From Aggregatilinea lenta (GTDB lineage: Bacteria; Chloroflexota; Anaerolineae; Aggregatilineales; Aggregatilineaceae), in contig NZ_BFCB01000001.1 of NCBI RefSeq assembly GCF_003569045.1, positions 837,189 through 901,188 on the forward strand: a DNA stretch of 64,000 nt, given 5' to 3'. Below the pieces are notes generated by a model. The model ran no database searches and was not told where the DNA came from. It saw only the letters and a list, made by a program, of their open reading frames with translations. The translations under genes and the position numbers were made by a program. How positions within the stretch are numbered: the stretch's first letter is position 1; each line of letters opens with the position of its first letter. Below are positions 37,928 to 40,678 of the stretch, piece after piece.

Positions 37928-39544
37928 TTAGTTGCTGGGCGGCAGCAGCACGCCGTCAATGACGTGGATCACGCCGTTCGAGGCCATGATGTCCGCGAGG
38001 ATCACCGTTGCCTGGCCGTCGTTCAGGACCACGCCACTGCTGGCATCCACGGCGATGGCTGCGCCGTTCAGCGTGGGAATGCTGCTCATACCCGCCACAT
38101 CCGCTGCGGTCAGCGTGCCGTCCGCGACATGGTAGAGCAGGATGCTGGTGAGCGTGTCCGTATCGGCCAGCAGCTCGTCGGCGGTCAGGCCGAGGGCGTC
38201 CAGCGCGGCGGCAAACGCGTCGTCAGTGGGGGCGAACACGGTGAAGGGACCGTCGCCGGCCAGCGTGTTCGCCAGCCCGGCAGCCTGCACGGCGGCGACC
38301 AGGGTCGTGAAGCGCCCATCCGCCACGGCGATGTCCACGATGCTGCCCATCGACGCGTCTTCGGACATCTCATCGCTGCTCATGTCGTCCGCCGGGTAAC
38401 CGGTGGTGTTGTCGGCCAGCAGGGAAGCTTCGACCGCTTCCACGGTCACGCCGGGGTTATCCAGCGTGCCAGTGGCCGCCACGAAGTAGAACGTGTGGGG
38501 CATCAGTTCCGTGCCGGACAGGTCGAGGACCACCGGCTCGGTTGCGCCGCTGGGAACCACCTGCAGATTGTAGGTGCCCGCCGGGACGTCGAGCGTCGCC
38601 GCGTCGTCACCAAAGGCCAGGCCCGTCACAATCGGAGCGCCGTCCGCCAGGATGTCCACCGCGGGCGCATCCTCGATAGCGTGCAGGATTGTCACGCGGG
38701 CGCTGCCGTCAGCGATGGGGCTGTAGTCTTCCTGCACAACCTGGACCGCCAGCGTGCCCGCGTCCAGCGAGCCAACGGCGGCGATGGTGTTCCACGTACC
38801 GGCCTGCAGATCGTAGTTCAGTGGGCCGATGGCAGCATCCACGTAGGAGGTGCCTGCCGGTGCAACGGCGAGTTCGTACTGGCCTGCCGGAAGCTCGACC
38901 CAGCCGCTCACGTCACCGAAGTTCAGCGCCTGGATGCCGCTCAACTCACCGTTGACATAGACCTCAACTGCCGGGGTGTCGGGCGAGAAGTGCGCGACAC
39001 GCAGGTAGCCAAACGCGGTTTCGGTCGCTTCCACCGGCGCTGCAGGCGGCAGCAGCACGCCGTCGATCACGTGGATCACGCCGTTCGAGGCCATGATGTC
39101 GGTAGTAACCACGTTCACCGAGTCGTTGAGCACGACTGTCCCATCTTGCACGGCAATCGATAGATCGCTGCCCTGGACTGTCGTGGCCGAGCTGAGCGTC
39201 ACGACCTGGTCGGCAGTGACGGCACCGGGCACGACATGGTAGAGGAGGATCTGGGTGAGCGTGTCCGTGTCGGCCAGCAGCTCGTCTGCGGTCATGCCCA
39301 ACGCGTCGAGCGCGGCTGCAAAGGCGTCATTGGTCGGTGCGAAAACGGTGAACGGTCCTTCGCCCTGGAGCGTTTCGACCAGGTCTGCCGCCTGGAGAGC
39401 GGCCACCAGCGTGCTAAATTGCGGATCGCTGCTGGCAATGGCGACGATGTCCTGCTCGTCGCTCTGGGCGCGGGCAGCCCCGGCGGGCAGTAAGAAGGCG
39501 GCACCCAGTGCCAGGAGGACAACGATGATGATGTACTTACGCAT
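37928..39544 (-). CDS. Secreted FAS1-DUF4397-FAS1 protein
   Basis: A 538-residue secreted protein. After the signal peptide (IIIVVLLALGAAFLLPAGAA) come: a fasciclin domain (residues ~30-165, with FAPTNDAFAAAL and LLYHVVPGAV), two DUF4397-like beta domains (~180-390, starting LRVAHFSPDTPAVEVYVNGE) and a second fasciclin domain (~400-537, with FAPTDDAFAAAL and LLYHVADGT). FAS1 domains mediate adhesion. The symmetric FAS1-DUF4397-FAS1 order suggests a surface adhesin. Both FAS1 domains end in the motif DIMASNGVIHVIDGVLLPP. It is monocistronic. Confidence 0.9.
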   Translation of the reverse strand: MRKYIIIVVLLALGAAFLLPAGAARAQSDEQDIVAIASSDPQFSTLVAALQAADLVETLQGEGPFTVFAPTNDAFAAALDALGMTADELLADTDTLTQILLYHVVPGAVTADQVVTLSSATTVQGSDLSIAVQDGTVVLNDSVNVVTTDIMASNGVIHVIDGVLLPPAAPVEATETAFGYLRVAHFSPDTPAVEVYVNGELSGIQALNFGDVSGWVELPAGQYELAVAPAGTSYVDAAIGPLNYDLQAGTWNTIAAVGSLDAGTLAVQVVQEDYSPIADGSARVTILHAIEDAPAVDILADGAPIVTGLAFGDDAATLDVPAGTYNLQVVPSGATEPVVLDLSGTELMPHTFYFVAATGTLDNPGVTVEAVEASLLADNTTGYPADDMSSDEMSEDASMGSIVDIAVADGRFTTLVAAVQAAGLANTLAGDGPFTVFAPTDDAFAAALDALGLTADELLADTDTLTSILLYHVADGTLTAADVAGMSSIPTLNGAAIAVDASSGVVLNDGQATVILADIMASNGVIHVIDGVLLPPSN

Positions 39545-39853: not shown

Positions 39854-40630
39854 ATGAATCACCGTATCCTTTTGACGTTTGCCTTAGGTATTTTGCTGCT
39901 TGCCGCTGCGGTGCTGACCGCCCTGCCCACGACTACGCACGCCTTCAGCGACGAAGACGACAACCGCGAGACTATCCTGCGCATCGTCAACGAGGGCTTC
40001 AACCAGGGGAACGTGGCGGTTATCGACGAGGTAGTCGCGCCGGACTACGTGAGCTATGACCCCAGCGGCGCAACCGAGGACCGTGACGCGTTCAAGGCGT
40101 CGATCCTGGCGTTCCGTGCTGCCATGCCCGATCTCAACGCCAGCGCCGATCCGATCATCGCGGAGGACAACTGGGTCGCGTTCCGCTTCACCATGACGGG
40201 CACGTTCCAGAACGCGCTGGACATGGGCGACGGGGCCATCCCGCCGACGGGGCAGACCGTGACCTTCCACTCGAACATCATCGCGCGCTTCAACGAGGAC
40301 GGGCTGCTGGTCGAGGAGTGGGACGAGTTCGACTTCGCGACCTTCGGCGCGCAGTTGGGCCTTATGGACGAGGGCATGACGGACGATACGGGCGGCGAGA
40401 TGATGCCGACTGAGGCCGCGATGGACGGGCCGGACACCGGGGCGGGGCTGGATGGTGATGCGCTGGTGAACGAGCGCTGCACGGTCTGCCACAGCCGCGA
40501 CCGCATCGACGCGCAGGATAAGGACGAAGCAGGCTGGACCGCAACGGTGGATCGCATGATCGGGTACGGCGCGCAGTTGAACGCGGACGAACGCGCCGCC
40601 GTGATCCAGTATCTGGTCGAGACGCACTAG
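39854..40630 (+). CDS. Secreted SnoaL-like / cytochrome c fusion protein
   Basis: A 258-residue secreted protein. After the signal peptide (LLTFALGILLLAAAVLTALP) is a SnoaL-like NTF2-fold domain (residues ~35-170; ILRIVNEGFNQGNVAVIDEV, AFRFTMTGTFQ, VTFHSNIIARFNEDG). A short Met/Glu-rich linker is followed by a C-terminal cytochrome c-like domain with heme motif CTVCH (209-213) and Met235 as a possible distal ligand, closing with the helix ADERAAVIQYLV. The start follows GGAGG. SnoaL folds are usually cytosolic polyketide cyclases or isomerases; fusion with a c-type heme is unusual. Confidence 0.8.
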   Translation: MNHRILLTFALGILLLAAAVLTALPTTTHAFSDEDDNRETILRIVNEGFNQGNVAVIDEVVAPDYVSYDPSGATEDRDAFKASILAFRAAMPDLNASADPIIAEDNWVAFRFTMTGTFQNALDMGDGAIPPTGQTVTFHSNIIARFNEDGLLVEEWDEFDFATFGAQLGLMDEGMTDDTGGEMMPTEAAMDGPDTGAGLDGDALVNERCTVCHSRDRIDAQDKDEAGWTATVDRMIGYGAQLNADERAAVIQYLVETH

Positions 40631-40643
40631 AGGGGACACGCAT

Positions 40644-40678
40644 GCCGCCCCTGCGCCCGATATCTCCGCAGGGGCGGC
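40644..40678 (+). terminator. Hairpin after the SnoaL-cytochrome gene
   Basis: GCCGCCCCTGCG pairs with CGCAGGGGCGGC, a perfect 12-base stem 13 bases after the stop; no T run follows. Confidence 0.5.

Follow-up and report, generated by a model that had tools for sequence, protein, structure and literature searches.

We have found that an exported protein of Aggregatilinea lenta joins a SnoaL domain to a monoheme cytochrome c tail, a new domain architecture that makes use of a known kind of cytochrome. The fusion is real and well-formed. Its gene lies in a 64,000-nucleotide stretch of contig NZ_BFCB01000001.1 (positions 837,189 to 901,188), referred to here as the window. On balance, we read the product as a one-electron port, in which an exported SnoaL-fold protein works together with a captured monoheme class I cytochrome c module. 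The occurrence of one tail on many unrelated secreted proteins suggests a reusable electron-passing plug. Cytochrome domains usually sit on enzymes with known redox chemistry; here, one small heme module is found on 11 named partner families, several of them without known redox role. A heme tail common to many exported proteins of one bacterial family is more interesting than a lone SnoaL case. Should the module prove to be an electron port, it would open a way to the function of poorly understood secreted domains such as DUF7282, Lipoprotein_15, PsbP-like and exported SnoaL.

The fusion gene and its surroundings

The open reading frame is intact, with its ATG at 39854 and its stop codon at 40628-40630 (+), and an AAGGAGG ribosome site was read from the sequence upstream of ORF 39854-40630. 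Place and length agree with the initial annotation, which had described a 258-residue secreted protein; the N-terminus, MNHRILLTFALGILLLAAAVLTALPTTTHA, looks by eye like a signal peptide. Features of the gene and protein are collected in Table 1.

Table 1. Features of the fusion gene and its product in the window
Feature	Position	Strand	Basis
Exported SnoaL-cytochrome c fusion gene, 258 aa + stop	39854..40630	+	ORF, Pfam
Signal peptide, residues 1-30, cut likely after THA	39854..39943	+	by eye; model helix 3-23
SnoaL (NTF2-fold) domain, residues 40-168	39971..40357	+	PF07366 E 7.9e-24; SnoaL2 8r2e model match
Flexible linker, Met- and acid-rich, about residues 173-198	40370..40447	+	pLDDT, sequence
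Monoheme cytochrome c tail, LDG to last residue; CTVCH, candidate distal Met, C-terminal helix	40448..40627	+	PF09098, DNA homology, model
Possible terminator hairpin, between fusion gene and convergent ZIP gene	40645..40678	.	inverted repeat, by eye

By Pfam, a fasciclin-DUF4397 gene lies divergently on one side of the gene and a ZIP transporter gene convergently on the other, so that the substrate is not named by any redox neighbour. The divergent gene (37928-39544, -) encodes a secreted fasciclin - DUF4397 - fasciclin protein. Met- and acid-rich linkers were also seen by eye ahead of the tails of L003 and L072, two further tail-bearing loci of this genome. Since the fasciclin neighbour has a similar stretch without heme (by eye), such linkers may be a habit of the genome.

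The SnoaL domain

The NTF2/SnoaL-like domain of the initial annotation was recovered by PF07366 at 84.3 bits against a cut-off of 28.4. In the full-length structure model, residues 31-170 have block-mean pLDDT of 90-98, and the linker (residues 171-200) falls to means of 52-65; this model was used for the SnoaL part and not for the tail, which had no homologous rows there. The closest structure is SnoaL2 8r2e (TM 0.86 normalised to the target; 31% identity), which gives the domain an NTF2-type fold in common with SnoaL2/SnoL, AclR and other SnoaL-like polyketide-tailoring proteins. None of the matched SnoaL-like PDB chains is described as a heme protein, unlike the window protein. Because solved SnoaL relatives hold polyketide substrates and products in their pocket (titles of 8r2b and 8r2e), the ligand here may reasonably be guessed to be aromatic or quinone-like. 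Among the matches listed, the closest SnoaL domain is one half of a tandem SnoaL protein from the same order (L042/L076, 45% identity), in which the heme motif is absent.

The motif CxxCH is missing from 70 of the 72 distinct SnoaL ORFs in the fetched loci, in keeping with the earlier statement that SnoaL proteins usually lack heme and with the rarity of the combination. The exceptions are the window protein and a protein found at L149 (1240-4203, G172:C300) and L067. The latter, 987 aa long with a lipoprotein-like start (by eye), has a SnoaL domain followed by a di-heme DHOR-type region, and is a separate, independent union of SnoaL with c-type heme. It also gave dockerin and cohesin matches, both under the cut-off. 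The search for other SnoaL-CxxCH proteins that had been proposed therefore returned this one unrelated di-heme protein and no second SnoaL-tail fusion. None was present in 60 relatives (full-protein search), in 153 other genomes of the order (up to 17 candidates scored per genome) or among the matches listed for 395 other genomes of the class (up to 6 candidates scored per genome); the three sets overlap, and fusions may be missed given the candidates scored per genome. When all fetched loci were searched locally with profiles, four ORF entries had both domains, and each was a copy of the window locus. Five SnoaL matches with C-terminal extensions (L120, L018, L142, L143 and L148) were considered as further fusions and rejected, as they have no CxxCH; a second SnoaL match was seen in L142 and L148 and a second NTF2-type one in L120, and L018 and L143 were read by eye. 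No account of SnoaL with a c-type cytochrome or heme protein was found in open-licence PMC text, the only literature covered.

A SorB-like cytochrome c tail

The tail is a 60-residue monoheme cytochrome c with CTVCH at residues 209-213. PF09098 was matched at 33.8 bits (cut-off 25.2), with residues 201-257 covering profile positions 3-66 of 167. Scores to two more specific profiles fall under their cut-offs: SorB (NF052246; E 8.6e-11, 41.8 bits, equivalog cut-off 93) and the alpha subunit of quinohemoprotein amine dehydrogenase (QHNDH; TIGR03908, 34.5 bits against 274.35, positions 5-72 of 510). In the sequence alignment, the candidate distal Met shares its column with the Met residues of SorB (QKMI) and QHNDH (TRMM). 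Together with the PF09098 match, this bears out the c-type cytochrome that had been read from CTVCH and a candidate distal Met. A CxxCH arising by chance was rejected, since the tail forms a domain that has homologs.

A separate model of the tail and part of the linker (md21331c1574a), predicted with 43 homologous tails, has block-mean pLDDT of 93-96 over the tail and contains four helices, the last of which is the C-terminal helix noted at the outset. Its best fold match is SorB 2blf_B (Z 8.6, 61 residues, 1.9 A), and the first heme domain of QHNDH 1jju_A was also matched (Z 5.8, 60 residues, 1.1 A). Foldseek with this short model gave no match at E <0.001, the best being SorB at 7.4e-3. Since the fold tool warns that Z below 8, or below about 13 for helical bundles, may reflect a mere common arrangement, the SorB value was weighed jointly with the sequence matches to SorB and QHNDH. 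Taken together, the tail comes nearest to the sulfite dehydrogenase subunit SorB and to the first QHNDH heme domain.

SorB, the heme c subunit of SorAB (2blf), shares the W...M and C-terminal helix pattern with the window tail, but it is a separate subunit on a molybdenum enzyme, whereas in the window protein the cytochrome is attached to a SnoaL domain as its tail. Likewise, the window tail comes without the second heme domain or any other part of QHNDH. In the SorB-related SorU, the axial ligands are given as His 51 and Met 87, and in the SorT/SorU sulfite dehydrogenase the small cytochrome is described as docking beside the catalytic site (both from the portions of PMC4760952 drawn on here). 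For Thermus cytochrome c550, the authors regard it as very likely that the SorB-like domain takes electrons from a sulfite oxidoreductase (PMC3561395, in part). These cases lend support to an electron port by analogy only.

Secreted proteins with c-type cytochrome domains strung by linkers to other domains are also described in Teredinibacter turnerae (TERTU_2913 and TERTU_3803 (X183)), and TERTU_3803 has a pf08450 (SMP-30 type) domain, as does the tail protein at L098 (excerpts of PMC10916295). According to the same excerpts, the proteins of this shipworm symbiont are large, multi-domain and multi-heme, unlike the monoheme window tail, and the X183 fold is a weaker match to it (8q1v, Z 5.4). 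A cytochrome was likewise gained by fusion in Chloroflexi NirS with an added upstream domain, C1; as described in part of PMC8756737, C1 is of the c551/552 type and sits on a known redox enzyme, and it is set beside the window tail by description only.

Constraint on the candidate heme ligands

The first sets of tails were picked by a pattern requiring CxxCH, Trp and Met, so that invariance within those sets proves nothing. Conservation was counted instead by a profile scan of 75 distinct tails drawn from 215 loci, minus the far relatives L110-L119. Both Cys, the His and the Trp were kept in 75 of 75 tails and the Met in 73, with a profile that was built from alignment rows picked by the CxxCH, Trp and Met pattern and favours intact tails. 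Another scan, with the far relatives included, found CxxCH in 58 of 58 tails. The tail is better conserved than the rest of the protein in 11 of 12 related pairs (the pairs share members, and one is a near tie at 0.78 vs 0.77); the exception is the P460 pair L026/L028 (tail 0.61 vs N-part 0.66). Homologs without CxxCH had been named in advance as evidence against a cytochrome. That test splits: SnoaL homologs do lack the tail, and every distinct tail counted has the motif, which is what a newly made fusion carrying a functional cytochrome would show.

Two tails have Gln in place of Met, and both are linked to P460 (L027, 1762-2718; L178, 448-1689). Such a replacement could open a site. This would suit an alternative in which the heme is a sensor or scavenger of gas or peroxide (NO, CO, H2O2) with the SnoaL domain only its carrier. 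P460 domains bear the tail as well, and the unrelated SnoaL protein at L149 has a di-heme region of peroxidase type. However, the window protein keeps the Met, so that a six-coordinate electron-transfer heme is expected, and it has no signalling domain; we consider this role improbable.

That the fusion is recent and neutral, with no role in its source genome, appears more remote still. It is in agreement with the finding of the SnoaL-tail fusion in one genome only among the matches listed, but both domains are intact, the window tail has every residue that is invariant across the tail alignment, and its end branch is short (0.068) despite third positions far from those of its paralogs.

A heme module with many partners

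Searching the genome with the tail itself gave strong matches at five places; a sixth, weak at E 0.27, was left out of the count. The five are the window gene, the PsbP-like L002 and L003, L072 with four DUF7282 domains and L073 with a PQQ propeller, i.e. five copies of the tail on four kinds of partner, SnoaL included; a PF09098 search returned the same five places. Across the order, a tail profile found 41 places in 18 of 154 genomes, and in the own family the tail is present in 15 of 18 genomes. With 37 of the 41 places in open frames of more than 250 aa, the module there tends to belong to a larger protein. In the class sample, at least 52 of 396 genomes have the tail; outside the own family these amount to at least 56 places in at least 50 genomes, of which 43 of 56 are in frames of 200 aa or less (up to 16 candidates were scored per genome, and tails may be missed). 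Among the short proteins read, L059, L061 and, from the order, L031 are lipoprotein-like and consist of the cytochrome alone. The usual form may thus be a small cytochrome that stands alone, and the own family may have turned it into a fusion partner.

Among the named relatives of the tail, Anaerolineae and further Chloroflexota predominate; some records are from Coriobacteria, Latescibacterota, Armatimonadota and proteobacteria. In Armatimonadota-related records (L111, L114-L119), large proteins with frames of 731-1358 aa contain a distant version of the heme domain, twice each in L111 and L116.

Across the genomes searched, the tail is joined to 11 Pfam families (Table 2) and to one unnamed PsbP-like domain. 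This last N-part gave no Pfam match above the cut-off, PsbP_2 coming closest at E 0.04, nor any match to PDB sequences, and its name is a weak lead.

Table 2. Pfam families joined to the heme tail
Partner	Loci	Basis	Found in
SnoaL	window	Pfam	own family
PQQ	L073	Pfam	own family
DUF7282	L072, L102	Pfam	own family
Lipoprotein_15	L017, L176	Pfam	own family
Cytochrome_P460	L026, L027, L178	Pfam	own family
SGL/SMP-30	L098	Pfam, barely above cut-off	own family
Rhodanese	L179	Pfam	own family
Oxidored_molyb	L083	Pfam	other families of order/class
Peripla_BP_6	L081, L097, L101	Pfam	other families of order/class
SBP_bac_5	L080 (with SBP_bac_3), L082	Pfam	other families of order/class
Bmp	L167	Pfam; divergent tail, profile E 5.8e-8, PF09098 not called	other families of order/class

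The SnoaL protein had been presented as a lone case. As a combination it is rare, but its cytochrome is a module found on many exported proteins, binding proteins among them, and therefore need not serve the SnoaL ligand. The PQQ propeller, P460 and Oxidored_molyb partners are redox enzymes by family. The substrate-binding, DUF7282 and PsbP-like partners have no known redox chemistry, and a catalytic partner may not be what the tail serves. Binding proteins of this sort are the strongest objection to an electron port and leave room for a docking or tagging role. In its general form, this alternative holds that exported proteins of this lineage bear the tail as a tag for docking, anchoring or stability: attached heme would aid its folding or its docking on a surface cytochrome, and electrons would never reach the SnoaL site. 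It would account for a tail common to SBP_bac_5, Peripla_BP_6, Bmp, DUF7282 and PsbP-like proteins and for its varying position, C-terminal or, in L080-L082, near the N-terminus behind a lipoprotein-like signal. Nearly invariant heme-ligand residues would be needless for a mere tag, and the structures that the tail model matches best are parts of redox enzymes that serve electron transfer, a point for the port. We rate a tag as a serious but rather unlikely explanation.

Several partner proteins merit a separate description. The heme module lies near the N-terminus of ABC-type substrate-binding proteins at L080:4643-7405, L081:3335-4903 and L082:4614-6680, and the module is C-terminal in another such protein at L101:2582-4177. 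An exported double rhodanese with the same heme tail (L179:450-1694, G003:C93) is a candidate electron-transfer protein for thiosulfate or sulfane sulfur. The protein at L083:3148-3927 (G286:C485), lipoprotein-like by eye, combines Oxidored_molyb with the heme module and recalls SorA and SorB in one chain. A DUF7282-type protein at L095:2207-4177 (also L038) has at its end a tandem pair of near-identical heme tails.

Ancestry of the tail

At the DNA level, homology with the L003 tail starts at LDG and that with the L002 tail at its G, and both reach into the stop codon. The five tails of the genome are 62-82% identical in amino acids and 47-69% at third positions, as expected of old copies under purifying selection; the wide divergence at third positions led us to reject a recent duplication of the tail.

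In a tree of 48 tails and 60 columns, the SnoaL tail pairs with the PsbP-like L002 tail of the same genome (97/87, starred), and the nearest row by tree path is L015, another PsbP-like tail. This pairing indicates that a secreted SnoaL protein probably captured an already existing tail. Tails have changed partners repeatedly, but within limits. The tree requires 24 changes for the 14 architecture labels (minimum 13), fewer than for shuffled labels (mean 32.1; 0 of 200 shuffles as low), and thus tails stay with their partners more than by chance. The tree is short and poorly resolved, with 25 of 44 inner branches open, 7 starred and an unsettled bootstrap, and we draw from it nothing beyond the starred pair and the repeated exchange. 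By eye, the gene beside the closest tail paralog (L002:2631-3686, -) reads as phage-portal-like.

A possible route for electrons

A PsbP-like gene within the lineage is the probable source of the module. If the protein is an electron port, heme would be attached to CTVCH outside the membrane by machinery of the Ccm (System I) type. CcmF, CcmH and a thioredoxin-like protein are encoded in the genome, along with a second Cytochrom_C_asm protein that has the size of CcmC; System II maturation was rejected, as a search gave no ResB match in the genome. The iron would be held by the His and probably the Met, and the heme would swing on the flexible linker. It would trade single electrons with the ligand or substrate of the SnoaL pocket, perhaps one of aromatic or quinone-like nature, and would exchange them with a cytochrome or oxidase partner common to the other tail-bearing proteins. 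A more specific version, which we put forward only tentatively and would not bet on, is that the tail is a standard plug-in of one Chloroflexota family, copied onto enzymes, binding proteins and a SnoaL protein so that all of them can reach one common electron partner outside the membrane, and that the SnoaL pocket binds a redox-active organic molecule and trades single electrons with it. The genome encodes two full-length COX1-family proteins, along with two partial matches, and the full-length pair are possible electron sinks.
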